A stretch of DNA of 64,000 bases from a virus, in the IMG/VR virus record IMGVR_UViG_3300025121_000776, positions 1-64,000 of that record. The stretch is one strand, 5' to 3'. Each line of letters begins with the position of its first letter. The stretch's first letter is position 1. Shown piece after piece: positions 27,307-63,911 of this stretch. The translations under genes were made by a program, and so were the position numbers. The notes beneath the pieces were generated by a model. The model saw nothing but the letters and a program-made list of their open reading frames with translations. It had not been told where the DNA came from and searched no databases.

Positions 27307-28573
27307 CTCCATATTCAATTAATTTATTTTCTATATCTTTTATTTCATTAATTACTATTAAGAGAATATTGTTGTTATTACAGTATTCTTTTTTTATCTT
27401 ATCATGTCTTACTGTATACTCTAAAGATTTGTCCCCTCCAAAGAAACTTATAGGAGAATAATGCTGAATTCCGTTAAATTCGATGCAACAATTACTTTTT
27501 GGTAAATAAAAGTCAAATGGCAATAAACCTTTGTCTTTACAGTTATTGAATTTATGCTGAGATAAAAAACATATGTTATTTTTATTTAAGAAGTTTCTTA
27601 TTAGCTTTTCTCCAACAGATTCTTTGCAAATAGGGCATCCACATGCAGCGAGATGTGTGCCAGCAACCTGTTCAAAAATTCCATGCTTTTTACAAATTAT
27701 TTTTATTTTACTTATATTGTTCTTATACACAGATACGGAGTAATCATATTTTTCTCCATGTATTAATTTTGATTTATTTACAAATTCATCTGTTGTTAAT
27801 TTTTTTGTTTTGGAACATTGTATACATCCGTGTTTTTTTAAGTGTTTTGATGCTTTTTGTTTAAAATTTCCATGCTTCGGGCATATTATAATTACTTTAT
27901 CATCCATCGTTTTATAATTTACTAAAAAATAATTGTATTTAAAATTATGAATTAAATTTGCTTTTTTAATAAACTCTTCTTTGCTTAAGGGATAATTTGG
28001 AGAGCATTTTTTACAACCTACTTTATCATTTGTGTGAGAATTCGCTCTCACCAAAAAGTTTCCATGTATAGGACATGTGATTGTAATTTTTTTGTCTCCA
28101 CTTGTATATATAGATAAGGAATAATCATATTTATCTCCGTGAATTTTTTTCGATTTCTTTATGAAATCTTCAGATGTCATTTTATTATTACCAGCACACT
28201 TTTGACACCCGCTACCAAGTAGATGCCTATGTGGAGTTTGCTTAAATACTCCATGAGTTTTGCACATTATTTCAACTTTACTTTTATTGCTTTTATATAT
28301 GACTAATGAATAATCATATTTTTCTCCATGAATTTTTTTTGATTTTTTTATAAATTCATAAGTTGTTAAAAATTTATTTAAAGTGCATTTTTTACATCCA
28401 CATCCTTGATTAATGTGATAATCTGGGATTTGTTCAAATATTCCATGAGTTTTACAGATGATTTTTATTTTTTTATGGCTATTTTCATATTCAGTTAAAG
28501 AATAATCGTATCTGTCTCCATGTACTTTTTTTGCTCTTAAAACAAAGTCTTGTGTTGTTAATTTTTTAGGCAT
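27293..28573 (-). CDS. Endonuclease with five treble-clef-like repeats and a VSR-like/EDxHD nuclease domain
   Basis: About 426 residues. Five repeats of ~59 residues each have the pattern (S/T)-x-x-(D/E)-F-(I/V)-x-K-(A/S)-x-x-(I/V)-H-x-x-(R/K)-Y-(D/N)-Y followed by C-x2-H-G-x-F ... H ... G-C-x2-C, a likely zinc-binding treble clef as in DUF723-type phage nucleases. The last ~100 residues are the nuclease: LPFDFYLPKSNCCIEFNGIQHY, with Asp/Glu/Gln-His positions like VSR and EDxHD homing enzymes. The ATG at 28573 is preferred over GTG at 28582 because AAAGGTGA lies 7-8 nt upstream. It overlaps the preceding small gene by 8 nt. Probably a mobile homing-type endonuclease. Confidence 0.82.
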   Translation of the reverse strand: MPKKLTTQDFVLRAKKVHGDRYDYSLTEYENSHKKIKIICKTHGIFEQIPDYHINQGCGCKKCTLNKFLTTYEFIKKSKKIHGEKYDYSLVIYKSNKSKVEIMCKTHGVFKQTPHRHLLGSGCQKCAGNNKMTSEDFIKKSKKIHGDKYDYSLSIYTSGDKKITITCPIHGNFLVRANSHTNDKVGCKKCSPNYPLSKEEFIKKANLIHNFKYNYFLVNYKTMDDKVIIICPKHGNFKQKASKHLKKHGCIQCSKTKKLTTDEFVNKSKLIHGEKYDYSVSVYKNNISKIKIICKKHGIFEQVAGTHLAACGCPICKESVGEKLIRNFLNKNNICFLSQHKFNNCKDKGLLPFDFYLPKSNCCIEFNGIQHYSPISFFGGDKSLEYTVRHDKIKKEYCNNNNILLIVINEIKDIENKLIEYGVIQK

Positions 28574-28730
28574 GATATTCACCTTTCATTTTGTTAAAAT
28601 GCTCAATTAACAACCACTCAATAAATTTAGATTTGTTTTTAATTTCTTCTAAATGAATGTATAATTCATTAGGAATTCTCACAGCAATCGTTTGTTTTTG
28701 TTTTTCTAAATCAATTTTCTTTCTTCCCAT
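28566..28730 (-). CDS. Ribbon-helix-helix-like small DNA-binding protein, upstream partner of the endonuclease
   Basis: 54 residues, ATG at 28728-28730. After a basic MGRKKIDLEKQK start, the sequence QTIAVRIPNELYIHLEEIKNKSKFIEWLLIEH has the beta strand (alternating T-I-A-V-R-I), the helix A and the turn-helix B (NKSKFI) of Arc/CopG/MetJ proteins. Its last codons overlap the endonuclease start by 8 nt and contain that gene's AAAGG sequence, so the two are co-translated. A regulator that limits endonuclease expression is the natural guess. Confidence 0.65.
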   Translation of the reverse strand: MGRKKIDLEKQKQTIAVRIPNELYIHLEEIKNKSKFIEWLLIEHFNKMKGEYHA

Positions 28731-28752
28731 AATAAATATTATTAATGTTTAC

Positions 28753-28760
28753 TATAAATA
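28753..28760 (-). promoter_or_regulatory. TATTTATA motif before the small RHH-like gene
   Basis: TATTTATA read on the minus strand, 22 nt before the ATG at 28730. This is the same sense-oriented motif found before the structural transcription units. It may be a late promoter that drives the RHH-endonuclease pair. Confidence 0.35.
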
Positions 28761-28795
28761 GAAGTAAAAAATAAAAACAGAACAGGTCGTGTAAA

Positions 28796-28930
28796 TTATT
28801 TTTGTTTTTTTTCTATATATTCTTTTAAAAGCCTAATTATCAATTTACTTTTATTAAAGTCACCTTCTTCTAATTTTTTTATAGTTTCTGGAGATAAAGT
28901 GATACTTAATTTCATAGTTTCGTTTTTCAT
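28796..28930 (-). CDS. Second ribbon-helix-helix-like small protein
   Basis: 44 residues, ATG at 28928-28930, stop at 28796-28798. MKLSITLSPETIKKLEEGDFNKSKLIIRLLKEYIEKK gives strand MKLSITL, helix SPETIKKLEE, turn and helix NKSKLIIRLLKEYI, a minimal RHH fold. It lies 65 nt upstream of the other RHH-like gene in the same direction. A promoter-like TTTTG-N20-TATATTTA reads towards it from about 28983 down to 28951 on the minus strand. The protein is tiny and could be a repressor or an antitoxin-like protein; no toxin is seen next to it. Confidence 0.55.
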   Translation of the reverse strand: MKNETMKLSITLSPETIKKLEEGDFNKSKLIIRLLKEYIEKKQK

Positions 28931-28988
28931 AGATTTATTTTATTTTAAATATAATTAAAAAACTTATAAAATACAAAATATTTTTAAT

Positions 28989-29017
28989 AAGCCTTTACAT
29001 TCGTGAAGGCTTTTTTT
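28989..29017 (+). terminator. Intrinsic terminator with TTCG loop
   Basis: Stem AAGCCTT..CA, loop TTCG, TG-AAGGCTT with a 2-nt bulge (28989-29012), followed by a run of T to 29017. The T-tract lies only on the plus-strand side, so it stops transcription coming from the metallophosphoesterase direction, although that gene ends 1.7 kb upstream. Confidence 0.75.
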
Positions 29018-29050
29018 ATTTTTCTCATAATTAATTAAAAAATTAAATTT

Positions 29051-29278
29051 ATGAAGAATAGTGAAAAGTCAATTAATGGCAAAAGAATTTTTATCGTTTA
29101 TACAAATGTGGGAAATCTATCGGATACCGAAATTCTACCCTACATGGGAAAAGCAAAATTAGCATTTAAAGAAATAGAAAAATTTGATGATGCAATTGTC
29201 ATTTATATTCCCATTAGAGGCGAAAACAGTAGGTGGAAACCATTTTTTGCTAAAATAAAATATTATGAGAAACGATAA
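29051..29278 (+). CDS. Small protein of unknown function
   Basis: 75 residues, one compact domain of predicted alpha/beta type: KRIFIVYTNVGNLSDTEILPYM, then KLAFKEIEKFDDAIVIYIPIRGENSRWKPFF. No family recognised. It is the first gene after the 28989-29017 terminator and overlaps the next gene by 14 nt, so it starts a new transcription unit that runs into virion genes. A role in head or neck assembly is only a guess from position. Confidence 0.6.
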   Translation: MKNSEKSINGKRIFIVYTNVGNLSDTEILPYMGKAKLAFKEIEKFDDAIVIYIPIRGENSRWKPFFAKIKYYEKR

Positions 29279-29645
29279 AATTATTAATGAAATTAGAATA
29301 AGATTAGGTGCTCCAACGATTGCAATCGAGTTGATTGATGAGCAAATCAAAGAAGCTATTAGAATTGCCAAGGAAGAATTTACATTCATTACATCATCTG
29401 TTGGAATAACTCCAAGGTTAGGAGTAAAAAACATCTGGATAAAAAGATATACCTTGGCAGTTTGCAAAGAAATGCTTGGTAGAATTAGGGGAAAATTCGA
29501 AAAAATTCCTATGTCAGAAAATGGAAATGAGATGGATGCAAAAGCTCTCTTAAAAGAATCTACAGATGAAAAAAACCTTTTATTCAGAATGTGTATAAAC
29601 CAAACTCCAGAGCAGTTTATATTGCTTGGGAAAGATAAAATATAA
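29265..29645 (+). CDS. Putative virion (neck/connector-region) protein
   Basis: 126 residues. INEIRIRLGAPTIAIELIDEQIKEAIRIAKEEFTF at the N terminus and RYTLAVCKEMLGRIRGKFEKIPMSENGNEMDAKALLKES resemble small conserved structural proteins of T4-like and cyanophage-type myoviruses, where a helical bundle ends in an LGxIRxKF motif. I cannot name the T4 counterpart with certainty. It is followed 9 nt later by the HAD-like gene, and all genes to 35851 run the same way. Confidence 0.45.
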   Translation: MRNDKIINEIRIRLGAPTIAIELIDEQIKEAIRIAKEEFTFITSSVGITPRLGVKNIWIKRYTLAVCKEMLGRIRGKFEKIPMSENGNEMDAKALLKESTDEKNLLFRMCINQTPEQFILLGKDKI

Positions 29646-29654
29646 AAATAAATC

Positions 29655-30434
29655 ATGAAAAAATTAGGAATCGCAATTGATGGCGTTATAAGAAATTATC
29701 TTGATGCATTTGACAAACAGTATAGAAAAGCATTTATTCATAATGCAAACATTGTTCAAATGGATGAAGAATTTCAATTTAAAGACCCGACTGAAAAAGA
29801 CTTAGAGGAGGCAACAAAAAGAATTGAAGAAAAAACAAAGGAGTTAATTTCTTTGCCAGTGGACTCACTTGATTTACTTAACCACTATCAATTCAATGAA
29901 ATCAAAGAATTTGAAAATGAAAATGCATTTAAAACCCCAGAAGACTCCGAATTCAACAATTTTAATATGGAAACAGAGTTCAAAAATAGAATTCTAACTC
30001 CGCAGGAAGCACTGCACAAATTTATGTATGAAAAGTACCCTTTTAGAATTTTCGGAGATTCAGAAGAATATCAGAACGCAATGAGTCACTTTAATAGGAT
30101 TCAAGCATATGGGTTGCAACACAATCTATTTGAAACTATTCTTATCACAGACTTAAAAGCTAACGCTGTGACTGCAAATTATTTTTTCTTACATAAAACT
30201 GGCTGTAGAGCAAAAAGCGTACAAGTTGCAAAGGATAATGTAGATAAATGGAATTTTTGTGACGTTCTAGTTGATGCATCTCCAGAGGCATTTCAAAATA
30301 AACCAGATGGAAAAATATCTATTAAAATAGAAAGATTATTTAATCAATATGATGAAGCAGATTATTCGCTTAAGCATCTTAAAGATTTGAATAATGAAAT
30401 GTTACTTAAAAAATTATTTATTGTCAATGGATAA
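29655..30434 (+). CDS. HAD-superfamily-like protein with an altered nucleophile motif
   Basis: 259 residues. The N terminus GIAIDGVIRNY has the second Asp and Gly of the HAD motif I (hhhDxDGT) but Ala7 in place of the nucleophilic Asp. ILITDLKANAVTANYFFLHKTGCRAKSVQ and KWNFCDVLVDASPEAF near the C terminus resemble motifs II-IV of haloacid-dehalogenase-type phosphatases. Residues ~75-135 are an acidic cap-like insertion. The fold is likely HAD, but phosphatase activity is doubtful. HAD-like proteins occur beside structural genes in other myoviruses, where they may be structural or regulatory. Confidence 0.5.
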   Translation: MKKLGIAIDGVIRNYLDAFDKQYRKAFIHNANIVQMDEEFQFKDPTEKDLEEATKRIEEKTKELISLPVDSLDLLNHYQFNEIKEFENENAFKTPEDSEFNNFNMETEFKNRILTPQEALHKFMYEKYPFRIFGDSEEYQNAMSHFNRIQAYGLQHNLFETILITDLKANAVTANYFFLHKTGCRAKSVQVAKDNVDKWNFCDVLVDASPEAFQNKPDGKISIKIERLFNQYDEADYSLKHLKDLNNEMLLKKLFIVNG

Positions 30435-31122
30435 TTTTGCAAAAAGATACAAATATTTAGTTAAATATCCTTTAAACGAGGAAATGACAATTTCGCCAAG
30501 CTTCCAAAATAATGTTTTTGAGAAGAATGATGCACGGAAAAGCATTGCTTTAGAAGTTGGAGTTGATGATGAAAATAAAGAACAAAATAGAATTAATCTT
30601 ATTTTACAATTTAGCAATGCAAGTGGTTATAAAGAATTGGTTTTTTATTTTAATGTAACTGATGAAGAAAACAGCAAAACAACAGTTGTTCCAGCCGCTA
30701 TATATGATAAAAATATTGTAAAAAGACATCTTCCAAAAGAACTGTTAGGTAAAAATGTTTTTAGAGATAAAATAAATGAAATGTTTAAAATACTTATAAT
30801 TATGGAAAAACCAGATTACTTTTTTATGGAATCATATGAAGACTTCAAAGATTACAAACAAATATCTTATTACGAACAATTAATAAAATTGATTACAGAC
30901 AATGGGTATGAAATAGAAAAACAAGGAGTTAATATTAACAAAAAATATTATTGGAAATTTGTAAACAAAGTTATTTTAGAAACCGAAGAATATAAAGACA
31001 AAATTAAAAATGAAGATTTTATACCTTGCAGAAACAATGTTCCTGATTATTGGGAAAAGATGGATGAGCTTTGTGAAGCGTCTTTAATAAGAAAAAACGC
31101 TAAAGAATCTACAGAAAAATAA
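30427..31122 (+). CDS. Protein of unknown function in virion operon
   Basis: 231 residues from the ATG at 30427, which overlaps the preceding gene by 8 nt as elsewhere in this genome. An ATG 33 nt earlier would lengthen the overlap to 41 nt and adds a segment unlike a domain start. Mixed alpha/beta composition, with LILQFSNASGYKELVFYFNVTDEE and YYEQLIKLITDNGYEIEKQGVNINKKYYWKF. No signal peptide or membrane segment. No recognised family. Confidence 0.6.
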   Translation: MDNFAKRYKYLVKYPLNEEMTISPSFQNNVFEKNDARKSIALEVGVDDENKEQNRINLILQFSNASGYKELVFYFNVTDEENSKTTVVPAAIYDKNIVKRHLPKELLGKNVFRDKINEMFKILIIMEKPDYFFMESYEDFKDYKQISYYEQLIKLITDNGYEIEKQGVNINKKYYWKFVNKVILETEEYKDKIKNEDFIPCRNNVPDYWEKMDELCEASLIRKNAKESTEK

Positions 31123-31155
31123 ATATAATTTATATAATCAATTAAAAACAATAAT

Positions 31156-32238
31156 ATGAAAAAAATTAAAGATTCAGCAAAAGCTGAAATGAAAAAAGCA
31201 GTTCAAAAAGAACTGTCAAGAATAATGGCAAAACAAATTGCAAAAGAAGACTTTTTTAAAGAAATGGTACAAGAAATAGTATCAGATTTTTTTGAAGAAG
31301 ATGCAATTAAGGAAACAGCTATTCCACACCCAGAACAACCATGGAATTGGGGCACAACTACACCAGAAAGATTAAAGCTTTTGGCTGGAATAAAAAAGGG
31401 CGAATTAAAAGATGAGTTTTCTAAAATTATTAACAAAAATCTTAATAGCGAAGAAAAGGAATATTTTGAACAAATAGCTGATTCCCCCAATATCAAAAAC
31501 TCACCAGACTTCAATAGGCTAATTAAAAGAAAAAACTCAAATGTTCTTTTTACAGATGAGCAAATGAGAACTTTATTTGACCCAGCCCGTTTGGCTGAAA
31601 AAGAAAAAGCACAATCTAGCTACTCAAATGATATTGTTTTTGGAAAAGCAAATCCGCAAAACATAAACAAACTTAGTGGTTTTGTAAAAGACCAGGCAAT
31701 TGAAGATTATTCACGAATTAACTACACGCAAGAAGTTAAAGATAATTTATTTGATTACATTAAAAATAACAAATCTTCTTTAGAGGCAACACATGAACAA
31801 TTCCACATTAATCCCATTAATTCAATGGAAAGGTATCATGTAACAAATAAAAAAAATTTACATCTAGATAAAACTGAGGTGGCCTATAAATTCAACAGAG
31901 GAGCTTATAATATAAATCCAGAGCACTTTTCTTTTAATGTAGAAATAAAAACAAATACAAAAACAAACATTAAGGCTGTACTGTTAAACGATGTTTATTT
32001 AAAAGGAGAATATTTTCCTCATGGACACATTACTTTTGATGATGTGACAAAGCTTTTAGATATAGCACAGCAAATTTATTCTGATACAATAATTTGTCCT
32101 CTTTCAGAAACTCGCATAGAAGAAACTCAAGTAGAAAGAGTTAATAGAATTAAAAAACCAAGACGTAGCATAGTTTCAGCAAGTTTTAAATCATCGAAAC
32201 CTAAAAAAATCAATAAAAAAGAAAGAAAAGTTAAATAA
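31156..32238 (+). CDS. Protein of unknown function, possible virion protein
   Basis: 360 residues. The N-terminal 50 residues are a charged, probably helical region rich in Lys and Ala (KAEMKKAVQKELSRIMAKQIAKEDFF). A Pro/Trp segment PHPEQPWNWGTTTPERLKLLAG near residue 60 is distinctive. The C-terminal tail is strongly basic (KKPRRSIVSASFKSSKPKKINKKERKVK at the very end), suggesting nucleic-acid contact or packing in the virion. No family recognised. Its 33-nt upstream gap holds TTTATA-type AT-rich sequence. Confidence 0.6.
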   Translation: MKKIKDSAKAEMKKAVQKELSRIMAKQIAKEDFFKEMVQEIVSDFFEEDAIKETAIPHPEQPWNWGTTTPERLKLLAGIKKGELKDEFSKIINKNLNSEEKEYFEQIADSPNIKNSPDFNRLIKRKNSNVLFTDEQMRTLFDPARLAEKEKAQSSYSNDIVFGKANPQNINKLSGFVKDQAIEDYSRINYTQEVKDNLFDYIKNNKSSLEATHEQFHINPINSMERYHVTNKKNLHLDKTEVAYKFNRGAYNINPEHFSFNVEIKTNTKTNIKAVLLNDVYLKGEYFPHGHITFDDVTKLLDIAQQIYSDTIICPLSETRIEETQVERVNRIKKPRRSIVSASFKSSKPKKINKKERKVK

Positions 32239-32298
32239 CCGTTTATTTTACTTTAAAAAATAAATATAATTAATTTAAATAACTGAAAAAAATATCAT

Positions 32299-33483
32299 AT
32301 GGAAGAACAAGTGATTGAAAAAACTCAGATAGACCACAATGAATTGGTTGAATCTGTAATTGAAAAAGTAAGAACTAATAAATCAAAGTATTATTTTTAC
32401 TGCCCACCTCTTAATACTGCAAGTGGCGGAATTGGAGTACTAATTAAATTAGCTAGAATTTTAAAAACTGAGGGTTATGATTCTAAAATCGTATTTGAGC
32501 CCAGACAAGACCAAAAGGCTTCTTATGAGGAATCAAAAAAACACAATAAGCAAGTTGATATTTTTGAAAAGTTTAATCCAACTTGGTTAGATTTCGATTA
32601 TTCTGATATCGAATTTCTTCCTTTGGGAGATAAGGCAATTACTTACAATGATGGTACAAAACAAGAATGTGCTGCTTTAAATGTAAACCCAGAAGATTTT
32701 TTCATTATTCCAGAAGGGTTTCCAAATGTAATGAAAAAAACTATGCAGGTTGCATGTAAAAAAATCGTTTTAGCACAAAGTTGGTTTTATGTCCTTAACG
32801 CCTTAAATACTGGTGAAAACTGGCAAAGTATGGGTGCCTTTGATGTAATTTCTGTTTCGGCTGCAATTACTGAATATTTAAATACTGTTATGCCTGGCTT
32901 AAAAATTAAAAACTTTTCGCAAGGAATTAATAGAAAAATATTTAAAGTTCCTGGAAAAAAATCCAACAAATATCCAATGATTGGATTCATGGGAAGTAGA
33001 GGGCAAGAAAATCAAATGAAAACTTTTAATATTATTAAAACTTTTCAAGCTTTTTATCCACACTTAAGATGGGTTAGATTTATTCAATTAGGAGGATTGT
33101 CTAAAAAAGATTTCGCAGAGAGATTATCAAGTTGCGCATTTGTTTTATACACAGATGATATTGCTGGATTTGGGACTCTTCCTTTAGAGGCGATGGCAAC
33201 TGGAACACACGTTGTTGGGTGGAATGCATATGGAGGAAAAGAGTATGTTACCGCAGAAAATGGATTTTGGACTGTGAATGGAGATATTTTTCAGACAGCA
33301 GAAATTTTAGGCATCGCTATTGATAAATGGTTAAATGGAGAATTGGATGCTGAAGAAATTCAAGAATCATATGAAAAAACCTTATCAAAATACACAGAAG
33401 AAGGTGAAAAAGAAAATATTTTACAAATTATTAACCAATATAAAAACGAAAGAATCAATGAACTTGAAGGACTTAAAAAATAG
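32299..33483 (+). CDS. GT4-like (GT-B fold) glycosyltransferase in the virion operon
   Basis: 394 residues. The N-terminal glycine loop is PPLNTASGGIGVLIKLARILKTEGYDSKIVF (residues ~36-66). The C-terminal donor domain has IGFMGSRGQENQMKTFNIIKTF and the family signature AGFGTLPLEAMATGTHVVGWNAYGGKEYV near residues 290-318, where the Glu binds the nucleotide sugar. It has an added charged C-terminal tail. It is over 6 kb from the glycan block, directly before a GT2-like gene and the sigma factor, and might glycosylate virion proteins or DNA. Substrate unknown. Confidence 0.78.
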   Translation: MEEQVIEKTQIDHNELVESVIEKVRTNKSKYYFYCPPLNTASGGIGVLIKLARILKTEGYDSKIVFEPRQDQKASYEESKKHNKQVDIFEKFNPTWLDFDYSDIEFLPLGDKAITYNDGTKQECAALNVNPEDFFIIPEGFPNVMKKTMQVACKKIVLAQSWFYVLNALNTGENWQSMGAFDVISVSAAITEYLNTVMPGLKIKNFSQGINRKIFKVPGKKSNKYPMIGFMGSRGQENQMKTFNIIKTFQAFYPHLRWVRFIQLGGLSKKDFAERLSSCAFVLYTDDIAGFGTLPLEAMATGTHVVGWNAYGGKEYVTAENGFWTVNGDIFQTAEILGIAIDKWLNGELDAEEIQESYEKTLSKYTEEGEKENILQIINQYKNERINELEGLKK

Positions 33484-34396
33484 CAATGTACTTGTCGCTA
33501 TATATATAGATGACTTAAGTAATTTAACAACTTTAGAAGAAACTTTTTATAGTATTTCTAAACAAACACACCCAATAGATTTGTTGGTGTTACATCCAGA
33601 ATTTTCAGAAGACCAACTTAATTCTTTAAAAGAAGCGCTAACCAATCCGAAAATTGTTTTGAGAAAACAAAATGAAAAAAGGGAATTTGAAGAAGAAATT
33701 TTAACAACCGATGAAAAAATTAATTATTTTTTATCAGTTTCTACCGCTGAGTCATTTTCTAAAATATTCAATGATGGATTTAATATCGCCTTAGAAAATG
33801 AATATGAATTCTATTCTGTTATAGAAACAAATGATGTAGTCGGGTTAAATTGGTATTCTCATGCAAATATTTATGCAAAAGAAAACGAAAACATTTCTAT
33901 CTTTTTTCCAATCATTAGGAATACCGTAAATGGAGTTTTTAGTAGTTTAATAAACGAAGCTCCGTGGGCTGAAGGAATGGCTGAAGAGGCAGGAAAAGTA
34001 GATTCAAATTTATTGTCAAGATTTAATTGTATTATTCCACTAAGCGCTATATTCAAAATAAGTATCCTTAAAGAGTACAGTGAACAAAAGCATGATGGAA
34101 AATATTACCCATTTAAAGAAAGTTTAAAAATAAGTCATTATTATGAATTTCTTATGAGGATGGTTTATAATGATGTGAAAGCCATGTGTGTTCCAAGAAT
34201 TGGATACGAGTTTAAAGTAAAAAATTCTGAAACCTTCAAACATACAGGTTGCAAAATTCCTCAAAACTTATCACAAATTCCTATTGATAAAGGTGGAATA
34301 ACACCAGCAGAGGGTAGTTTTTGGATGAGCTTAGCTAAAAAAGAATACTTTTTTGACGAAGATAGGAATAAGGTTTATGAAGAAGCTAAACAGTAA
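33458..34396 (+). CDS. GT2-like glycosyltransferase-fold protein in the virion operon
   Basis: 312 residues from the ATG at 33458, which overlaps the GT4-like gene by 26 nt. An upstream frame extension lies wholly inside that gene and is basic low-complexity, so it is rejected. LVAIYIDDLSNLTTLEETFYSISKQTHPIDLLVLHPEFSEDQLNSL matches the first half of a GT-A domain. The acidic position that should bind metal reads YSVIETNDVVGLNWYSHANIY, so the DxD is not canonical. It may be a divergent transferase partnered with the GT4-like protein. Confidence 0.55.
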   Translation: MNLKDLKNSNVLVAIYIDDLSNLTTLEETFYSISKQTHPIDLLVLHPEFSEDQLNSLKEALTNPKIVLRKQNEKREFEEEILTTDEKINYFLSVSTAESFSKIFNDGFNIALENEYEFYSVIETNDVVGLNWYSHANIYAKENENISIFFPIIRNTVNGVFSSLINEAPWAEGMAEEAGKVDSNLLSRFNCIIPLSAIFKISILKEYSEQKHDGKYYPFKESLKISHYYEFLMRMVYNDVKAMCVPRIGYEFKVKNSETFKHTGCKIPQNLSQIPIDKGGITPAEGSFWMSLAKKEYFFDEDRNKVYEEAKQ

Positions 34397-56260: not shown

Positions 56261-56275
56261 TTAATTTTTATTTTT

Positions 56276-56382: not shown

Positions 56383-56398
56383 AGAAAAAATTAATAAA

Positions 56399-58432
56399 AT
56401 GAGTTATTTAGTTCAAGAACCATCAAATTTCATAAACATCAAACTCACCGACACTGGAAGAAGGTTGTTGTCTTTGGGAGCATTAACTTTCAACAAAATA
56501 ATTCTTTCTGATAGAGAAATCAACTATAGTATGGGAAGAAGCGGTTATGACCTTTGTCACAATAGAGTTTTATCTCCAAAAGATGACCAACCGAAATTTA
56601 ATTTTAATTTTGACGCATCAACCCCAGCTACAATAAATGGACAAAACTTAACAAGTGCCAGACAAATTGTAACAGCCATGACAAATTCTATTGGGTTTTT
56701 TTCTGGTGGTTCTGGCGGCTTTTTTATAAAAACAACCGCTTCAGAAGGACAAGGAGAACCTTTAGGGGTAGCTGAAATAGATTATTCTTTAACTATTCCA
56801 AGTGGTGGAACTGAAATTTATTTTACTGCAGGAGGATATTCTGCAAACACAGGAAATTTGGTTTATATTCCTTGGGAACCACCACAATATAGCGGAATAA
56901 CAAATTCTGGAAGTACTATTTTTAGTGGAAGACCAAATGTTTCTCTTTGGTACAGAGTTCAAGGAAGAAGTGGCTTAAAATTAGATTTAGATAGAAGTAC
57001 TCCAAATTTTGGAAATTCATCTATTGCTGGCTCAACACAAAAAATTAAAGCATATTTTTATCCGTTTGGGGAAGTTGAAGATTATTATGGGTCTGGAGTA
57101 ACAACTAATTGTGGAATTTGGAATATGAATATTATAAGAACATCTTCTGAAATAGGCACAACAGTTGCAATGAGTGGATACACAACTTATGGGTCTATAG
57201 ACTTTAATGGAACAAAACAATATCTTGGATTTGATAATGAAACAAAAGCTTTTGGAATAATACATTACACAAACAAATATTCTGGAAACACTTATGCAGA
57301 ACAACTTGTACCTGGTACAGTTAAATTAGAAATTCCAAACATAATGTGGCATAAATATTTTTCTACACAAGTAGGACAAGAAATGAGTTATGGAATCACT
57401 TTATATGATTCTTATGGAAATAATATATTCGATAATGTGGCTCAAACAAGTTATAAAGAATTAAGAGATGGAATTTCAAGCACCTCTAATGTTGTAGGAA
57501 GAGTTTATTATAAATTAAAAATTATCATCATAACCGACCAAGAATTATTAACGGTATTAACATATAAATCAAATAGAAATTATACATTACCAAAAGTTAA
57601 TTTAAATTTAATGCCCTCTAACTCAGTAGCAAATGCAACTGGATTATGTAAAACAGATTATTCTTACTATGTAACATATGTAACTTATAGTAACACTTAT
57701 TTAAGCGGGACAAGTTATGGATATCCACAAAGTCTACCATGCTCATATGTCGAAAGAATAGATGGGCAAACCGATTCTAATGACATGGGTTCTGTTTTAG
57801 CGGTAAGTTTTCCTTCTTTTGCATTTCCTTTTATGAGAAATTCCGCAAACTTAGAAACACTAAGTGGAACTGGTTGGAACGCAAATTCTATACAAATATT
57901 ATTGCAAGAAATCACAACATCTGCAACAACTTTGGTTGGCGACTTACCAACAGGTAATTGGAAATTAATTTCTAATGGAATTGGAAATGGAATTTATACT
58001 GGAGAAACTGGACAAAACACAATTGCCCCACAAAGCTTACAAAGTCATGCGTTTATGATTACTCAACAAGATTATGATTCTGGAACAACTTATTCTTTAA
58101 TTGGGCAATTTTCAGCATTTACGTCAAATATAGATTTTGCAGCATCTAGCGGATTAACTTTTGGAAATGAAACATTTTTCTATGGTAATTTAACAACAGG
58201 AATTCAAGCAAACGTTTTCAAAACTATAATTACAGTATTTGCTAGAAATGATGAATTTAATTCATCTACATACAATTCAACATTTAATTCTTTATATGAT
58301 GAAAATACTTTTATTACAGAGATAGGAATATTAAATGCCAATGACGAATTGGTTGCTGTAGCAAAACCTTCATATCCCATAAAGAAAAATGAATCAAGAT
58401 ATTTAGCATTTCAATTAGAATTAGATTTTTAA
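56399..58432 (+). CDS. Large virion protein, paralogue family of the 56-61 kb cluster
   Basis: 677 residues. The N terminus NFINIKLTDTGRRLLSLGALTFNKIILSDREINYSMG is a pattern also present in the next gene (YLTEKGRNYLF...FKITYFSMSDPDTNY). The C terminus FITEIGILNANDELVAVAKPSYPIKKNESRYLAFQLELDF is closely matched by the end of the protein at 59639-60841. The body is Gly/Ser/Thr/Tyr-rich beta structure. Probably an abundant tail, sheath-decoration or fibre protein. Function not known. Confidence 0.6.
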   Translation: MSYLVQEPSNFINIKLTDTGRRLLSLGALTFNKIILSDREINYSMGRSGYDLCHNRVLSPKDDQPKFNFNFDASTPATINGQNLTSARQIVTAMTNSIGFFSGGSGGFFIKTTASEGQGEPLGVAEIDYSLTIPSGGTEIYFTAGGYSANTGNLVYIPWEPPQYSGITNSGSTIFSGRPNVSLWYRVQGRSGLKLDLDRSTPNFGNSSIAGSTQKIKAYFYPFGEVEDYYGSGVTTNCGIWNMNIIRTSSEIGTTVAMSGYTTYGSIDFNGTKQYLGFDNETKAFGIIHYTNKYSGNTYAEQLVPGTVKLEIPNIMWHKYFSTQVGQEMSYGITLYDSYGNNIFDNVAQTSYKELRDGISSTSNVVGRVYYKLKIIIITDQELLTVLTYKSNRNYTLPKVNLNLMPSNSVANATGLCKTDYSYYVTYVTYSNTYLSGTSYGYPQSLPCSYVERIDGQTDSNDMGSVLAVSFPSFAFPFMRNSANLETLSGTGWNANSIQILLQEITTSATTLVGDLPTGNWKLISNGIGNGIYTGETGQNTIAPQSLQSHAFMITQQDYDSGTTYSLIGQFSAFTSNIDFAASSGLTFGNETFFYGNLTTGIQANVFKTIITVFARNDEFNSSTYNSTFNSLYDENTFITEIGILNANDELVAVAKPSYPIKKNESRYLAFQLELDF

Positions 58433-58445
58433 AAAAATTTTTTAA

Positions 58446-58455
58446 TATATTTATA
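58446..58455 (+). promoter_or_regulatory. Candidate late promoter TATATTTATA
   Basis: TATATTTATA, 14 nt before the ATG at 58470: same sequence and same spacing as the copy at 35441. Confidence 0.5.
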
Positions 58456-58469
58456 AAAAAAAATAAATT

Positions 58470-58910
58470 ATGGGGCAAATATTATCATCAGATACAGTTT
58501 ATGCAGTAGCATACTTAACAGAAAAGGGAAGAAATTATCTTTTTGACCCAATGGGGTCTAATAGATTCGTAGAGCAAATTATAGGTGGAAATACAGTAAC
58601 AATAGATTTATTTAAAATCACTTATTTCTCAATGTCTGACCCAGATACAAATTATAACTTAACATCTGGAGTGCTATTGGAAACTGGCGACATTATAGAT
58701 GTTTCTGGAAAAAATGAAGGATGTATTAAAGGTACTTTAACTGGAGAAGAAATTAATTTAATTTCTTATAACGGAGTAGTTGGAGGGAATATTAATAATG
58801 ACCCAGTTGATATTCCAGCAGACGCACCAGTAGAAATTACAGTAGATTATACAGATGTTCAATTTCCATTGTCTATTGATATCATACCTTCAGCCCCAAC
58901 TGCAAATTAA
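58470..58910 (+). CDS. Small virion protein
   Basis: 146 residues. VYAVAYLTEKGRNYLFDPMGSNRFV...DLFKITYFSMSDPDTNYNLTSGVLLETGDIIDVSG matches the N-terminal pattern of the protein at 56399 (a T-x-x-G-R-x-x-L motif followed by an acidic SD/DPD element). The C-terminal ~40 residues are acidic and Pro-rich (NNDPVDIPADAPVEITVDYTDVQF). Probably a structural protein of the same assembly. Confidence 0.55.
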   Translation: MGQILSSDTVYAVAYLTEKGRNYLFDPMGSNRFVEQIIGGNTVTIDLFKITYFSMSDPDTNYNLTSGVLLETGDIIDVSGKNEGCIKGTLTGEEINLISYNGVVGGNINNDPVDIPADAPVEITVDYTDVQFPLSIDIIPSAPTAN

Positions 58911-58927
58911 TTAACAACAAATAAATT

Positions 58928-59611
58928 ATGGCAACAAGTCTAAATACAACTAATTTAAATTCAGTAAGTGCTGTTTTAACAAAAAACGCAATATCTGAAA
59001 GTACAATAAATAGAGATTTGGCATCTCAATTAAGTTCGGCAACAAAAAAACAGTCAAATGGTGACCCTACATCATTGCTTACTTATGCAATGAAGTTCAC
59101 AAGCTATGATATGACTGTTCCAACAAAACAAAAAATTATTCCAGAAACATTTACAATGAATGCTTGCTTTCCTGGATTAAAAAATCTTAGCGTTACTCCT
59201 CCAATTTATGTTTTACAATTTCCAGGAACATCATTTGGACTTATATTTTTCTTTCCCAATAGCAATGACGTAAAATCTTATGATGAGTTTCGTTTTGGCT
59301 TTGGAGAAGTAGATGCTACTTATGATATTGGATGGAGAGTTTATAAAACAAGGGTTTCAGATGTTTATAAACAAGTTTTTACAACTTGGTGTATGACATT
59401 GCCAAATAATGTTTCCGACCTAGCAACTACTCCAGGAGTTTCATCTAAATCAAAAACAATTACATCTGAATTGAGTAAAATGGAAAAAACACTTAACTTT
59501 TCAGTGGCTGGAGCTTCCACTGGCGATAGAGGGGTAAAAAACATCTCAGTTAGATTTAATTATATTCCAGGTTCTGTACCAACAGTTCCACCAGTATCAA
59601 CAATAGCATAA
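58928..59611 (+). CDS. Putative virion protein
   Basis: 227 residues. The N-terminal 45 residues are Ser/Thr/Asn-rich (TSLNTTNLNSVSAVLTKNAISESTINRDLASQLSSATKKQS), followed by a beta-rich domain with FPGTSFGLIFFFPNSNDVKSYDEFRFGFGEVDATYDIGWRVYKTRVS, and a Pro-rich end (GSVPTVPPVSTIA). No motif of known function. Co-transcribed with its neighbours; an abundant small structural protein is plausible. Confidence 0.55.
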   Translation: MATSLNTTNLNSVSAVLTKNAISESTINRDLASQLSSATKKQSNGDPTSLLTYAMKFTSYDMTVPTKQKIIPETFTMNACFPGLKNLSVTPPIYVLQFPGTSFGLIFFFPNSNDVKSYDEFRFGFGEVDATYDIGWRVYKTRVSDVYKQVFTTWCMTLPNNVSDLATTPGVSSKSKTITSELSKMEKTLNFSVAGASTGDRGVKNISVRFNYIPGSVPTVPPVSTIA

Positions 59612-59638
59612 AAACAAGAATAAATAAAAATCAAAAAT

Positions 59639-60841
59639 ATGCCACAAGAAATTAATAAATGCGCAGTAAATAATACAATTTCATTAAGAAAAGAAGTTGC
59701 TTCATCTGTATCGCTTTCCAATTCTCAAATTTCATATACTTTAGCAGATAGAACAGCTGTAAGCGTAAAATATGGGAATTATTTTACTGCATTTAATATT
59801 CCTCATATAGGGAATAATCAAATATTTTATAGTGGAGGAAGTGTTGCTTCCGCAGCAAGAGCCCACCCAGAATTATTTCAACTTAATGTTGATAAAATTG
59901 TAATAATTCCAATTGGAGTAAATCATTTTAATGAATATATTGATGGAAGGTCAATTACGTTAACAGTTCCACAGTGGGGCGGAACTTCTAAAACTGTAAT
60001 ATCAAGTTTTTATTCAGATGAACAAAGAACTTTAAAAAAAGCTGACTCCCCATTACCTCAATACTTTGGTCCAAAAAATGTAGCATTTCTATTTTCAAAT
60101 GATATAAATACTCCATATACAGGAACTTCTAACGCTGGAGCTATAACTCATAATTTAGCAGCATGGAACCCAACAACTGACTATAGAGATAGACCATCTG
60201 CTGTTGCATATTCTCAATTAGAAACATCAGATTTAAACACTGACACAAGAGCTTGGACTGTTGCAAAAAAAGCAGTAGCAGTTAATCAAGCATATCCAAA
60301 ATCACTTCTTGCATCTCAAGACCTTTTAAATGGGTATAATTATGACATTCCAGTTGGATTTGTTTGTTTAGATAAAGGATTTATTATACTTACACATCCA
60401 GAAATTATAAACGATATTCCTTGGACTTCTGGAAGTACAAGTTGTGTTCCTGGTTATGATAATGGAAGTTTAATGACAAATGATGGAGAAAATGTTATAA
60501 TAGGCTCAAATGCTGGCGCAACAAGCGCAACTACAAGTATTGTTTTTACAAGCACAACATCAACTTTAAATTTTGTTGATATGAGCGTAAGATATATGAC
60601 ATCTGTGTTATGTATAGCAATGCCAAAAACATTTTTTATATCAAAAAATCCAACATGGCCATTGCAAAGAAATTTAATAGAGGCAAGTCCTAATGGAAAT
60701 CAAAATTTTGATTCTATTTTTGTCACTCAAATTGGTTTATATAATGCTATGGAAGAATTAATTGCTGTCGCCAAACTTGATAGACCAGTTGAAAAAACAT
60801 ATGATAACATCATGACGTTTAATCTAGAAATTGACGTTTAA
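59639..60841 (+). CDS. Virion protein, C-terminal paralogue of the 56399 protein
   Basis: 400 residues. The last ~45 residues (FVTQIGLYNAMEELIAVAKLDRPVEKTYDNIMTFNLEIDV) align with the end of the 56399-58432 protein, sharing the pattern IGxxNxxxELxAVAK, P-(I/V)-x-K and F-x-L-E-(I/L)-D. The N-terminal part (ISLRKEVASSVSLSNSQISYTLADRTAVSVKYGNYFTAFNIPHIGNNQIFYSGG) is unique. It is followed by a strong terminator, so it ends the structural unit. Confidence 0.6.
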   Translation: MPQEINKCAVNNTISLRKEVASSVSLSNSQISYTLADRTAVSVKYGNYFTAFNIPHIGNNQIFYSGGSVASAARAHPELFQLNVDKIVIIPIGVNHFNEYIDGRSITLTVPQWGGTSKTVISSFYSDEQRTLKKADSPLPQYFGPKNVAFLFSNDINTPYTGTSNAGAITHNLAAWNPTTDYRDRPSAVAYSQLETSDLNTDTRAWTVAKKAVAVNQAYPKSLLASQDLLNGYNYDIPVGFVCLDKGFIILTHPEIINDIPWTSGSTSCVPGYDNGSLMTNDGENVIIGSNAGATSATTSIVFTSTTSTLNFVDMSVRYMTSVLCIAMPKTFFISKNPTWPLQRNLIEASPNGNQNFDSIFVTQIGLYNAMEELIAVAKLDRPVEKTYDNIMTFNLEIDV

Positions 60842-60851
60842 TTATAAAATA

Positions 60852-60889
60852 AACAAAAAAAGGGAGGACAAAATTCTCCCTTTTTTTGT
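60852..60889 (+). terminator. Intrinsic terminator after the structural genes
   Basis: A-tract, GGGAG, a 9-nt loop, CTCCC and seven T. The flanking A and T runs extend the stem to about 14 bp and make it a terminator in both directions; the plus direction ends the gene at 59639. Confidence 0.8.
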
Positions 60890-60914
60890 TTAACCATTGA
60901 TTTTATTTTTTTAT

Positions 60915-60922
60915 TATTTATA
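60915..60922 (+). promoter_or_regulatory. TATTTATA motif before the RuvC-like gene
   Basis: TATTTATA, 24 nt before the ATG at 60947, further away than the other copies, so less certain. Confidence 0.35.
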
Positions 60923-60946
60923 TTTTTAATTATAAAATTAAAAACA

Positions 60947-61492
60947 ATGTTACTATCCTTAGACATCAGCTCAAGCTGCATCGGTTATTCAGTATTTAAC
61001 GAGAAAAATACTTTAATTGAATTAGATTATGTAAGTTTTGATAGCAAAGCATCTTTATTTCAGAGGTTGGAGTATTTTAAAGAGAAAATATCATATTTGT
61101 TAAAATTTGATATTACAGCAATTGCAATAGAAGAACCTTTGAAAAAATTTAAAGGAAAGTTTTCATCAGCAGAAACAATTGCTTTATTAAATTTCTTTAA
61201 CGGAATGATTAGCTCTTTTTTATATAGTCATTTTAAAATTGAACCCGTTTATTATAATGTAAACAATGCGAGAAAAGTCGTTTTCCCAACTCTTAAAATA
61301 ACAAAAGAGGGAGCATCTACAAAACACCAAATTTGGGAAGAGGTTGTAAAACTTGAACCACAAATAAATTGGAAATATGGTAAAATTAGCAGAAAATTAA
61401 TGGTCGAAAACTATGATATGGCCGATTCATATGTAGTTGGAAAGTGTTACATAAAAATGTTCGAGACACAAAACTCTAAAATATTAAAATAA
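60947..61492 (+). CDS. RuvC-like Holliday-junction resolvase/RNase H-fold nuclease
   Basis: 181 residues. LLSLDISSSCIGYSVF holds the first catalytic Asp (D6). AIAIEEPLKKF supplies E62 (or E63), and ENYDMADSYVVG near the C terminus supplies D157 and D160, matching the D-E-D-D order of RuvC-family nucleases. Phage members resolve branched DNA before packaging or during recombination. It sits alone between two terminators with the lipoprotein gene and before the primase, consistent with a DNA-metabolism module. Confidence 0.8.
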   Translation: MLLSLDISSSCIGYSVFNEKNTLIELDYVSFDSKASLFQRLEYFKEKISYLLKFDITAIAIEEPLKKFKGKFSSAETIALLNFFNGMISSFLYSHFKIEPVYYNVNNARKVVFPTLKITKEGASTKHQIWEEVVKLEPQINWKYGKISRKLMVENYDMADSYVVGKCYIKMFETQNSKILK

Positions 61493-61515
61493 CTTAAGAA
61501 TTTTGTGTTTTTTTT

Positions 61516-61525
61516 TATATTTATA
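61516..61525 (+). promoter_or_regulatory. TATATTTATA motif before the lipoprotein gene
   Basis: TATATTTATA, 33 nt before the ATG at 61559, within a 66-nt gap. An overlapping TATATTCG at 61522-61529, with TTTG at 61502-61505, is a near-match to the host-type promoter, so the assignment is ambiguous. Confidence 0.35.
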
Positions 61526-61558
61526 TTCGATTTAAACTTAACTTAAAATTTTTTAAAG

Positions 61559-61735
61559 ATGAAAAAACTATTAGTATTATTCGCAATTTCAGCAATTACA
61601 TTAACTTCATGTAATTCAACAGTGTCAACAGAGTCTGTAGAGGCTTCTATTGACTCGGTAATGGTAGCAGACACAACTTGTCTTAGTATAGACACATGCG
61701 CTGTAAAAGTAGATTCATGTGCTGTTGTAAAATAA
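61559..61735 (+). CDS. Small Cys-rich lipoprotein
   Basis: 58 residues. MKK plus a hydrophobic stretch LLVLFAISAITL is followed by a lipobox LTSC, with cleavage before Cys18. The mature part is ~41 residues, Ser/Thr/Asp-rich, with three evenly spaced Cys (TTCLS, DTCAV, DSCAV). It has its own promoter-like sequence and a perfect terminator hairpin right after the stop. Phage lipoproteins often block the receptor (as T5 Llp does) or act as outer-membrane spanins. Either is possible here; no homologue is recognised. Confidence 0.7.
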   Translation: MKKLLVLFAISAITLTSCNSTVSTESVEASIDSVMVADTTCLSIDTCAVKVDSCAVVK

Positions 61736-61755
61736 ATACAAATTTATTTAGCAAA

Positions 61756-61790
61756 CAAAAAACTCCCAAGTTAGACTTGGGAGTTTTTTG
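61756..61790 (+). terminator. Strong intrinsic terminator after the lipoprotein gene
   Basis: CAAAAAACTCCCAAG, loop TTAGA, and the exact complement CTTGGGAGTTTTTTG: a perfect 15-bp stem whose 3' arm ends in a run of T. Confidence 0.85.
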
Positions 61791-61805
61791 TTTTACCACT
61801 TTTTA

Positions 61806-61837
61806 CTTGGAAAATTCAATATTTTACAATACATTTG
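61806..61837 (+). promoter_or_regulatory. Bacteroidota-type promoter overlapping the primase leader
   Basis: CTTG at 61806-61809, a 20-nt spacer, and TACATTTG at 61830-61837 (exact TAnnTTTG). The primase ATG is at 61844, only 6 nt after the box, so the transcript would have almost no leader. Confidence 0.55.
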
Positions 61838-61843
61838 CAAATT

Positions 61844-62842
61844 ATGGAAGACCAAAAGTTTATTATATTATCAATACTTAAGAATTTTCTAGGAGAGCCA
61901 AAATCATCAAGAGACTTGGAGTCAAGAAAACAATGGGAGTTTAATTGCCCAAATCACTACTGTAGAAATGATAATAATAAATATAATTTAGCTTTTAACA
62001 CAGATGACAATATTTATAAATGCTGGAAATGCAAAGACAGCGGTATTATTCATAAATTAGTGTATAAATATGGGTCAGAAGCGGATAATAAAAAACTTAA
62101 GCTTATAATGCCAACATATACAGGTAGCTTTATAAATATTTTTAGAAAACCGTCAATAAATCACAATTTAATATCTTGTCCTCTTCCCGAAGGGTATACT
62201 CCTTTAACAAATACAATAAGCTCTTTAATGCATAAATTAGCGCTTGACTACGCAATTAATACAAGAAAACTTTCAGTACAGCAAATTGTAGAGCATAAAA
62301 TCGGGTATACAGAAATAGGGAACTATAGGAACAGAATAATAATTCCATCTTTTAATGAATATGGAAACATTAATTATTTCGAAGCCAGAGCGTTTCTAAA
62401 AGGCGCCAAACTTCCATATTATAAACCAGATAAAAAAGCATTTCTAGATAAAAACATTCCAGAAAAATATGATATAATATTTAACGAAAAAAATATAAAC
62501 TGGGATTTGCCAGTGTATTTGGTAGAGGGAGTGTTTGATATGTTCAGAATTCCGAATTCAATTCCTATGTTAGGAAAAACTCCATCATGGTTATTGCTTT
62601 CAAAACTTATTGAACATAATGCTACAATTATAATCTGCCTTGATGAAGATGCTTTTAGGGATAGTTTAGAAATTTATGAGAAACTTTCTTCTTTAGATTT
62701 GGATGTTTATTTTGTAGATTTAAAGGGGTTTTCTGATATTTCTTTCTGTTATGAAAACTTCGGGCAAAAAGCAGTTATAAATCTTTTAAAAACCAGAACA
62801 AAAATAGACTTTATGTATAAAATATCAAAAATATTAAATTAA
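61844..62842 (+). CDS. DNA primase with zinc ribbon and TOPRIM domain
   Basis: 332 residues from the ATG at 61844. The open frame continues 3 codons up to a TTG inside the promoter, which is rejected. The zinc-binding region has Cys35, His38, Cys40, Cys60 and Cys63 (CPNHYC and CWKC). The TOPRIM domain shows YLVEGVFDMF with Glu228 and ICLDEDAFRDS with Asp267 and Asp269, the metal-binding acidic residues. It would synthesise RNA primers for phage replication. It is shorter than DnaG and lacks a visible helicase-binding domain, like small T4 gp61-type or phage DnaG-like primases. It overlaps the antisense endonuclease by 4 nt. Confidence 0.85.
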   Translation: MEDQKFIILSILKNFLGEPKSSRDLESRKQWEFNCPNHYCRNDNNKYNLAFNTDDNIYKCWKCKDSGIIHKLVYKYGSEADNKKLKLIMPTYTGSFINIFRKPSINHNLISCPLPEGYTPLTNTISSLMHKLALDYAINTRKLSVQQIVEHKIGYTEIGNYRNRIIIPSFNEYGNINYFEARAFLKGAKLPYYKPDKKAFLDKNIPEKYDIIFNEKNINWDLPVYLVEGVFDMFRIPNSIPMLGKTPSWLLLSKLIEHNATIIICLDEDAFRDSLEIYEKLSSLDLDVYFVDLKGFSDISFCYENFGQKAVINLLKTRTKIDFMYKISKILN

Positions 62843-63390
62843 GCTTTTGTTTTTATAAACAATTTGCTTCTGGAATTTAGTTCGGCAAGCCTAAAATGCT
62901 CTTTGATTTCTAAAAACTTTTTATATTTTCTTTGCAATCCAATGTTATCCAATTCTATTGTTTTATAAATATACTCACCAAAGCTTAGTAATGATTTTTT
63001 GTTCGTAAATCTTAAACAAGATGATTTGTTGCCGTTTTTATTTATTGTCTTTTTTATTGTATAATTACAACCCTTCATCCCCATCAAATTTTCAAAATCT
63101 ACCCAACTCTGCTCATAAGAACCAGATATGGCATATTGCTTACAAAATCCATTTGGATTTGTATAAAAGCAACCATCTCCATCTGAAAATCCAAGAAAAA
63201 AATAACTTTTTAATTCATCTGGAACTTTACTTAAAATTTTTGTTGGAGAAACCAATGACTTTTTATCATAATCATTTTCTAATAAAAAATCATATATAAA
63301 TGGGTTTGTAGTTGATATTATTGTTGTTTCTTTCCATGATTCTTTTCGTTTACATTTATAATATTTCCATGTTCCAATAGAATTAAACAA
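62839..63390 (-). pseudogene. 3' part of a LAGLIDADG homing endonuclease split by an in-frame TAA
   Basis: 183 residues counted from a TTG at 63390, though the same frame continues upstream through a TAA at 63400-63402 into the 63723 fragment. The second LAGLIDADG motif YFFLGFSDGDGCF with its catalytic Asp lies near residue 63-75. CLRFTNKKSLLSFGEYIY and the basic C terminus fit the DNA-binding saddle. On its own this half has one motif and would need to dimerise. Together with the upstream half it forms a ~290-residue two-motif enzyme. Confidence 0.75.
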
Positions 63391-63399
63391 ATCTTTTAT

Positions 63400-63723
63400 T
63401 TACTCCATATCTTCGCTTACTATTTTTAAAACTGTAATACAAGAATTGTATCTTTTATCATGACCAATGTGCCCATCTGCCCACAAAAATCCCAATATGT
63501 AAGCAACTTCTGGACATTCTACTTTTATAATTTTATTATGATTTATATTAAATTTATCATTTTTTATATAAGATAAATTTAATTTTTGTACCATCCACTT
63601 AATATTACACTTAGTTCTTTTTAAAAAATCCATGCAATATTTAGTTTTCTTTTCCTTATAATTCTCTTTTAAAAAATTTATATCACTTTCTGTCCATTTC
63701 TCAGATTTAATGTGCTCTTTCAT
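63400..63723 (-). pseudogene. 5' part of the split LAGLIDADG homing endonuclease
   Basis: 107 residues from the ATG at 63721-63723, preceded by AAGGA-like sequence. The N-terminal ~60 residues (KWTESDINFLKENYKEKKTKYCMDFLKRTKCNIKWMVQKLNL) form an HTH/Myb-like DNA-binding region. Then comes the first LAGLIDADG motif VAYILGFLWADGHIG (catalytic Asp). The frame ends LKIVSEDME-stop and continues in the same frame as IKDLFNSIGTW, so a single base change to TAA interrupts the gene. Confidence 0.75.
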
Positions 63724-63731
63724 AATTATCC

Positions 63732-63911
63732 TTATTGATTATTTAGCATTTGTTCCATAGATTCTCTTACAAATTCAGATATTTTAATAATTTTTCCTCG
63801 TTGAACGCTTTGTTCAATTGTTTTTTTAACACATCTTTGATATAAATCATCGCTTAATCTAAATGTTAATGTTCTAAATTCTATCAATTTGCCTTCATTT
63901 TTGTTTTTCAT
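63732..63911 (-). CDS. Ribbon-helix-helix-like small protein upstream of the LAGLIDADG gene
   Basis: 59 residues, ATG at 63909-63911, stop at 63732-63734. FRTLTFRLSDDLYQRCVKKTIEQ, then ISEFVRESMEQML, gives the strand-helix-helix order of RHH proteins, with a basic loop VQRGKIIK between the helices. The stop is 8 nt before the endonuclease ATG. This repeats the organisation of the 28.5-kb module, although the proteins are only distantly similar. Confidence 0.6.
   Translation of the reverse strand: MKNKNEGKLIEFRTLTFRLSDDLYQRCVKKTIEQSVQRGKIIKISEFVRESMEQMLNNQ

Follow-up and report, generated by a model that had tools for sequence, protein, structure and literature searches.

Putative pairs of ribbon-helix-helix repressors standing before exchangeable homing-type nucleases in large phages

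The DNA studied here, called the window, is a 64,000-nt stretch (positions 1 to 64,000) of the 186,855-bp virus record IMGVR_UViG_3300025121_000776 (G000). A first-pass annotation of the window had noticed a single small ribbon-helix-helix (RHH)-like gene directly before an endonuclease gene at two sites, the two endonucleases being of unrelated classes. We found that this module recurs in many phages, in front of unrelated nuclease classes and with strong positional enrichment. The pairing itself stands, and its usual form is richer than one small gene per nuclease: two paralogous RHH genes, RHH1 and RHH2, lie in tandem or divergently, and the second overlaps or abuts the nuclease gene. Recurrence, swapping of the nucleases, joint insertion, strong purifying selection on the RHH genes and a conserved promoter region are documented below. 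Judging from sequence, these are quite likely free-standing homing endonuclease units with a portable pair of RHH repressors acting on the nuclease promoter.

In cassette A of the window (Table 1), the small RHH-like gene is indeed placed directly before the endonuclease gene, the stop of RHH2 and the start of the nuclease overlapping by 8 nt (ATGCCTAA). The further RHH-like gene that had been signalled at 28,796 is real and is RHH1; cassettes B and C and almost all related dual cassettes likewise have an RHH1 paralogue ahead of RHH2. The nuclease matches phrog_559 (2e-96), phrog_9084 'homing endonuclease' (3e-28) and DUF723, and its C-terminus (DFYLP…IEFNGIQHY) appears Vsr/EDxHD-like by eye, on motif only. 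The antisense overlaps of the nuclease frames with neighbouring genes were also recovered: the cassette A nuclease gene and the plus-strand gene 25,747-27,306, a T5-A1-type 'DNA transfer protein' (phrog_1745), overlap at their 3' ends by 14 nt, and the LAGLIDADG frame at the second site overlaps a DNA-primase gene at its 3' end by 4 nt. G000 contains three copies of the RHH1-RHH2-nuclease cassette, A in the window and B and C outside it, together with the distinct RHH3-LAGLIDADG unit. All three RHH2 copies stand before a nuclease, and the RHH genes at the RHH2/RHH3 position precede one in four cases out of four (P about 1e-7). As only about 7 nuclease genes were counted among about 290 open reading frames (ORFs), this pairing is not due to chance. 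Beyond the RHH genes of the cassettes, no G000 ORF clearly scored with the RHH profile.

When 2.9 million viral contigs were scanned with the RHH2 alignment, 24 loci were obtained. RHH2 is directly followed by a nuclease in all except one, and there a Vsr-like gene is present after two small genes. RHH1 and RHH2 are in tandem in nearly all of these loci, with the nuclease start within a few nt of the RHH2 stop. The nucleases are Endo VII/HNH-like (L155–L162 and L168–L170, assigned by PHROG only), Vsr-like (L163, which is the locus L014, L164, L165–L167 and L172), GIY-YIG (L171 and L173; L152–L154 are weak, L152 falling under the Pfam cut-off) or LAGLIDADG (L151, Pfam 9e-16). Whole records of cassette-bearing phages were then searched, and the cassettes added in this way had no part in the choice of the records. 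The 372-kb relative G001 contains six RHH-nuclease units. Four of them are dual, with HNH (L206), GIY-YIG (L207, by motif and by eye) and Vsr-like (L208, L014) nucleases; the single-RHH units carry GIY-YIG/NUMOD3 (L209) and RHH3 with LAGLIDADG (L150). In G005, the nuclease is T5orf172 in a dual cassette (L211) and GIY-YIG in a single-RHH unit (L210). Leaving RHH1 and divergent partners aside, 26 of the 31 RHH genes in these records are directly before a nuclease. Altogether, the 20 distinct dual-RHH cassettes carry Endo VII/HNH-like, Vsr-like, GIY-YIG, T5orf172 or LAGLIDADG nucleases.

The reverse test gave the same picture. Nuclease sequences were used to fetch 134 loci with 5,001 ORFs, among which an iterated RHH profile seeded from the window phage only gave 13 matches, all at the nuclease and none elsewhere. 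Eight of them end no more than 40 nt from the start of the nuclease, one is an RHH1 and four are divergent partners (the binomial figure took 9 adjacent matches instead of the 8 of the strict count, <=40 nt, which leaves the conclusion unchanged). The enrichment of RHH genes beside endonucleases of different families that the first-pass annotation had led one to expect is seen from both sides, in all but one of the 24 loci and in 13 of 13 reverse matches. A first RHH gene divergent from the RHH-nuclease pair is found in four reverse-test loci, in L015 and in LR756501, a public 735-kb phage found independently, whose divergent RHH pair is followed by a nuclease 1 nt downstream. In the annotated phage collection, the one tblastn match of RHH1 (E=0.09) was to LR756501, also present as a twin record, and it proved to be a true cassette; RHH2 and RHH3 gave no matches there. 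No relatives were found with the RHH2 alignment in GTDB genomes, and none in plasmids.

Several lines of evidence, each weak when taken singly, agree in placing the small proteins in the ribbon-helix-helix (MetJ/Arc) superfamily. A profile comparison (hhalign) of A3 with CopG gave P=1e-4 over 35 columns. About half of the 32 members show Pfam RHH-clan matches, mainly to CcdA (12), RHH_3 (4) and RHH_1 (3), most of them weak. Modelled as monomers, the proteins are predicted to form two helices after an extended N-terminal strand, and the accompanying Foldseek matches are weak (E > 1). For RHH3 (AlphaFold2, predicted local distance difference test 80), the best Foldseek matches are weak ones to ParD RHH domains. 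The other nearest fold among the models, also weak, is the TCP-DNA complex 7vp3, whose TCP domain is described as RHH-type. RHH3 has no detectable relation to the RHH1/RHH2 profile. RHH1 and RHH2 are mostly 41-58 aa long and end a few residues past helix 2, the exception being the 89-aa RHH1 of cassette C, and most of them lack an antitoxin-type C-terminal toxin-binding segment.

Similar cassettes carry unrelated nucleases, and on the RHH tree nucleases of one class do not group together. In G001, RHH1 and RHH2 of L206 and L208 are 65 and 70% identical and the nucleases behind them are unrelated; among the 20 dual cassettes no cross-class nuclease match was found. For the class comparison, L211, whose catalytic domain is T5orf172, was counted as Vsr-like on the strength of its matching DUF723 repeats. 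On the RHH1+RHH2 tree, built from a short alignment and with weak deep branches, nuclease class needs 9 changes, versus 9.8 with shuffled labels, and approximately unbiased (AU) tests reject monophyly in each case for the three larger nuclease classes. Joint insertion is indicated by reciprocal empty sites. A 1,025-bp insert of G001 with RHH and GIY-YIG genes is absent from G000, where its flanks are aligned head to tail at 104,334/104,335; conversely, G001 has no cassette at the site matching that of cassette B in G000, and the two flanking genes are 57 nt apart there. The RHH and nuclease genes were thus inserted together. The small RHH proteins are real, and in the pairs compared no other part of the unit is as constrained as they are: the ratio of nonsynonymous to synonymous substitution rates (dN/dS) is 0.03 for RHH2, 0.17 for RHH1 and 0.32 for the nuclease between cassette A and L014, 0.03 for RHH2 and 0.52 for the nuclease between L155 and L157, and, versus L150, 0.10 for RHH3 and 0.20 for the broken LAGLIDADG gene of the window. 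RHH2 of L206/L208 is an exception (0.46).

The gap between RHH1 and RHH2 is likewise conserved. By its placement, the heptamer TATTTAT behaves as a phage promoter box: in the window phage, 25 of its 45 occurrences in 100-nt upstream stretches fall 20–29 nt before start codons. The G000 genes preceded by this box lie mostly beyond 35 kb, and it looks like a phage-specific promoter class. TATTTAT is present 15-36 nt before RHH2 in all of the 16 dual cassettes examined. A 15-bp signature, TATTTATNRYAAACA, has eight sites in the 559 kb of G000 and G001. Seven are the gaps of all seven dual cassettes of these phages, the eighth precedes an unrelated ORF, and the reversed control pattern has no site. 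Among A, B, C, L014 and L151, identity is 74–89% over 46 nt of the gap versus 64–79% for RHH2 coding DNA. This higher conservation, with the signature present in every dual cassette of the two phages, indicates that the RHH genes move together with a promoter and putative operator region. No classical palindromic operator shared by all cassettes was found; candidate palindromes are clear in L162 and L168 only, the two that have the perfect TATTAGTAT-N6/7-ATACTAATA.

Catalytic domains of known homing classes are present (LAGLIDADG_3, GIY-YIG, T5orf172 and PHROG homing-endonuclease families), and occupied and empty alleles occur in related genomes (G000/G001), as is characteristic of free-standing homing endonucleases. 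We propose that a unit is made up of RHH1, a promoter/operator gap, RHH2 and the nuclease, the last two genes overlapping or nearly so. RHH2 and the nuclease would be expressed from the phage-type promoter in the gap, and RHH1 would be transcribed separately, on the same strand or, in some relatives, divergently. The RHH proteins most likely dimerise, and could bind sites around the gap promoter and so limit nuclease production; in the gaps of cassettes A, B and C, RHH protection would be expected around TATTTATNRTAAACA. The benefit may be that the cutter homes into a co-infecting genome with no build-up in, or damage to, the carrier phage. Nucleases would be exchanged behind one RHH pair, and the same pair could serve any nuclease because control would act on DNA, by the promoter, while leaving the enzyme itself alone. 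Units with one RHH gene (RHH3-LAGLIDADG and others) are assumed to act alike. We infer binding and repression from the fold, the position, the conserved promoter region and evolutionary logic.

Several observations weigh against repression by RHH proteins. Line by line the RHH evidence is weak, Pfam scores being under the gathering cut-off and Foldseek E-values above 1. Only 4 of the 16 cassettes, namely B, C, L162 and L168, have gap inverted repeats at p <= 0.05. As a promoter box TATTTAT is general in this phage, and it is not in itself a specific operator; a cross-phage promoter matrix, which discriminates weakly in this AT-rich genome, ranks two of the three G000 cassettes 10th and 14th among 204 TATTTAT sites. 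RHH relatives also occur away from nucleases, at 55.7 kb in G005, 56.0 kb in G008, 5.8 kb in G019 and 32.9 kb in LR756501. Finally, nucleases without an RHH partner number 3 of about 7 in G000 and about 8 in G001. Their presence in the same phages indicates that RHH control would be optional and not essential for such nucleases.

The RHH proteins could instead be targeting or accessory DNA-binding subunits that guide or bridge the nuclease near its homing site, as built-in NUMOD or helix-turn-helix (HTH) modules do elsewhere. The near-constant overlap or contact of RHH2 with the nuclease gene would fit this role, as would the modular make-up of nucleases and the DNA-binding add-ons often borne by homing enzymes (NUMOD3/NUMOD1 in L209, L210 and L173). 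However, the nucleases already have their own DNA-binding repeats or NUMODs, and the RHH pair brings the promoter region along with it. Moreover, similar RHH pairs accompany unrelated nucleases at unrelated sites, so a guiding role would need to re-evolve each time, and we consider it unlikely. A type II toxin-antitoxin-like arrangement, in which an RHH antitoxin neutralises the nuclease by contact and represses the operon, has in its favour that CcdA, ParD and CopG-type antitoxins are the nearest profile or fold relatives and that an RHH gene followed by its effector with overlap is the typical order. It is nevertheless quite unlikely, since the few residues beyond the second helix could hardly accommodate a toxin-binding tail, a single RHH type serves nucleases whose folds are unrelated, which is hard to fit with a specific inhibitory interface, and the effectors are homing-type nucleases. 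Like a guiding role, an antitoxin role would need to arise anew with every nuclease.

It is very improbable that the RHH proteins are regulators of other phage genes that merely share insertion hot-spots with the nucleases. RHH-like genes are common in phages and a few relatives have no adjoining nuclease, but the 134 nuclease loci gave no RHH match away from the nuclease, the reciprocal empty sites lose RHH and nuclease together, and the RHH2 and nuclease genes overlap. Equally slight is the probability of cross-immunity, whereby the RHH protein of a resident unit would silence or block incoming units with the same operator, so that matching units exclude one another. The coexistence of differing RHH1/RHH2 cassettes in one phage (three in G000, four dual ones in G001) is what would be expected if like excludes like; against this, G001 has both L206 and L208, which show 65-70% identity and have the promoter signature in common, and the case is purely circumstantial. 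Returning to the repressor pair, we suggest tentatively, and with somewhat less than even confidence, that the dual-RHH cassette could be a portable regulatory unit in its own right that large phages' unrelated selfish nucleases acquire from one another, timing whichever nuclease it has captured and possibly making units with like operators mutually exclusive.

Table 1. Features of the RHH-nuclease units of G000. Positions are those of the window, except for cassettes B and C.
Feature	Position	Strand	Details
Homing-type nuclease of cassette A, 426 aa	27,293-28,573	-	treble-clef/DUF723 repeats and Vsr-like C-terminus
RHH2 (MGRKK...NKSKFIEWLLIEHF), 54 aa	28,566-28,730	-	predicted from profile versus CopG, Pfam RHH-clan matches of relatives, and model
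RHH1-RHH2 gap, 65 nt	28,731-28,795	-	promoter box and putative operator; signature TATTTATAGTAAACA at 28,746-28,760
RHH1 (...LSITLSPETIKKLEEGDFNKSKLIIRLLKEYI...), 44 aa	28,796-28,930	-	paralogue of RHH2
Intrinsic-terminator-like hairpin	28,989-29,012	+	outer edge of insert; 1 found, 0.6 expected
Remainder of LAGLIDADG frame	62,839-63,399	-	phrog_4645 2e-10, LAGLIDADG_3 3e-4
N-terminal part of broken LAGLIDADG gene	63,400-63,723	-	107 aa; phrog_4645 4e-8
RHH3, 59 aa	63,732-63,911	-	separate RHH-like family; 8 nt before LAGLIDADG frame
TATTTAT promoter-like box	63,942-63,948	-	upstream of RHH3
Cassette B, RHH1-RHH2-Vsr-like (511 aa)	G000 166,527-168,452	+	
Cassette C, RHH1-RHH2-Endo VII/HNH-like (255 aa)	G000 174,921-173,619	-	

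At the second site of the window, the pairing of an RHH-like gene with a LAGLIDADG frame was borne out, and the LAGLIDADG example is a broken gene. An in-frame TAA at 63,400-63,402 splits the frame, which rules out the single intact gene (62,839-63,723) that had been described; RHH3 is still intact. In G001 (L150), an intact 294-aa LAGLIDADG protein is encoded behind a 91%-identical RHH3 at the same primase site. At cassette A, the hairpin (Table 1) sits about 1.7 kb past the end of the DNA transfer gene, and L014 has a similar one there. It is probably the native terminator of this gene, displaced by the insert, which suggests that cassette A was inserted between the gene and its terminator. 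No Rfam family was found in the window at gathering score in a search for intron context.

Some further loci deserve mention. A Vsr-like nuclease gene of G000 (107,719-108,648, minus strand) has no RHH gene and is associated with a TATTTAT box and a stretch, CTTTTATTTCTGCA, resembling the cassette promoters. In G001 (L205, 1,042-2,431), the first of two consecutive Endo VII/HNH-like ORFs starts with MGRKK like RHH2, and a partial RHH match lies just upstream of the second; these are probably decayed or fused cassettes. In L015 (2,800-5,949), a divergent RHH pair is flanked by nuclease-like genes, one of DUF7487 type directly behind one RHH gene and a Vsr-like one behind the other, after two small genes. 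In LR756501.1 (L271, 243,574-245,195), an RHH gene lies 9 nt before an Eco57I-type DNA methylase gene, with a DUF7487-type nuclease-like gene on the opposite strand; here an RHH gene accompanies a gene for DNA modification. With no adjoining nuclease, G019 (L213, 1,260-1,946) and LR756501.1 (L272, 32.6-33.0 kb) encode proteins in which an RHH-type N-terminus (KTYSIEESIY...NINKSSFIE) is joined to another domain.

To our knowledge, only a few T4-type cases are understood in detail as to the way in which a selfish nuclease spares its carrier phage. If our proposal is true, a dedicated repressor pair that can be swapped would answer this question in general terms, and it would account for the many nucleases of different classes that a single phage can host. 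The RHH pair with its promoter signature could also serve as a sequence handle for finding new homing nucleases, divergent ones included, and the cassettes offer small natural candidate repressor-promoter pairs for bench work. The first-pass annotation knew of no description of such a control system, and we likewise found no account of the module in the open-access literature on homing/HNH endonucleases with RHH, repressors or regulation.

Among known systems, the controller (C) proteins of restriction-modification are small regulators whose gene lies near that of the nuclease, travels with it and times its expression. C proteins are of HTH and not RHH type, and the cassettes have no methyltransferase partner (one RHH gene of LR756501 precedes the Eco57I-type methylase). 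RHH antitoxins and repressors (CcdA, ParD, CopG, Arc) resemble the cassette proteins in size, in strand-helix-helix fold, in a gene placed before the effector and in probable autoregulation. The cassettes differ from them in having a homing-type nuclease of changing family as effector, little C-terminal tail and two paralogous RHH genes. Seg/Mob of T4 and the homing endonuclease genes (HEGs) of ICP1 share with our units the nuclease families, intergenic insertion, domain shuffling and the presence of several classes per phage (PMC2988022, PMC10448857). The terms 'ribbon-helix-helix' and 'RHH' are absent from PMC10448857, which describes no dedicated RHH partner for free-standing HEGs. The nearest tested precedent for the proposed autorepression appears to be I-TevI, the homing endonuclease of the T4 td intron, which represses itself via an operator overlapping its late promoter (PMC2988022). 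In both cases, if our proposal holds, a homing unit limits its own transcription at an operator overlapping a phage promoter. In I-TevI it is the nuclease's own DNA-binding domain that represses, and the gene is in an intron, whereas the cassettes would rely on separate candidate RHH repressors, in free-standing units, with one pair for several nuclease classes.

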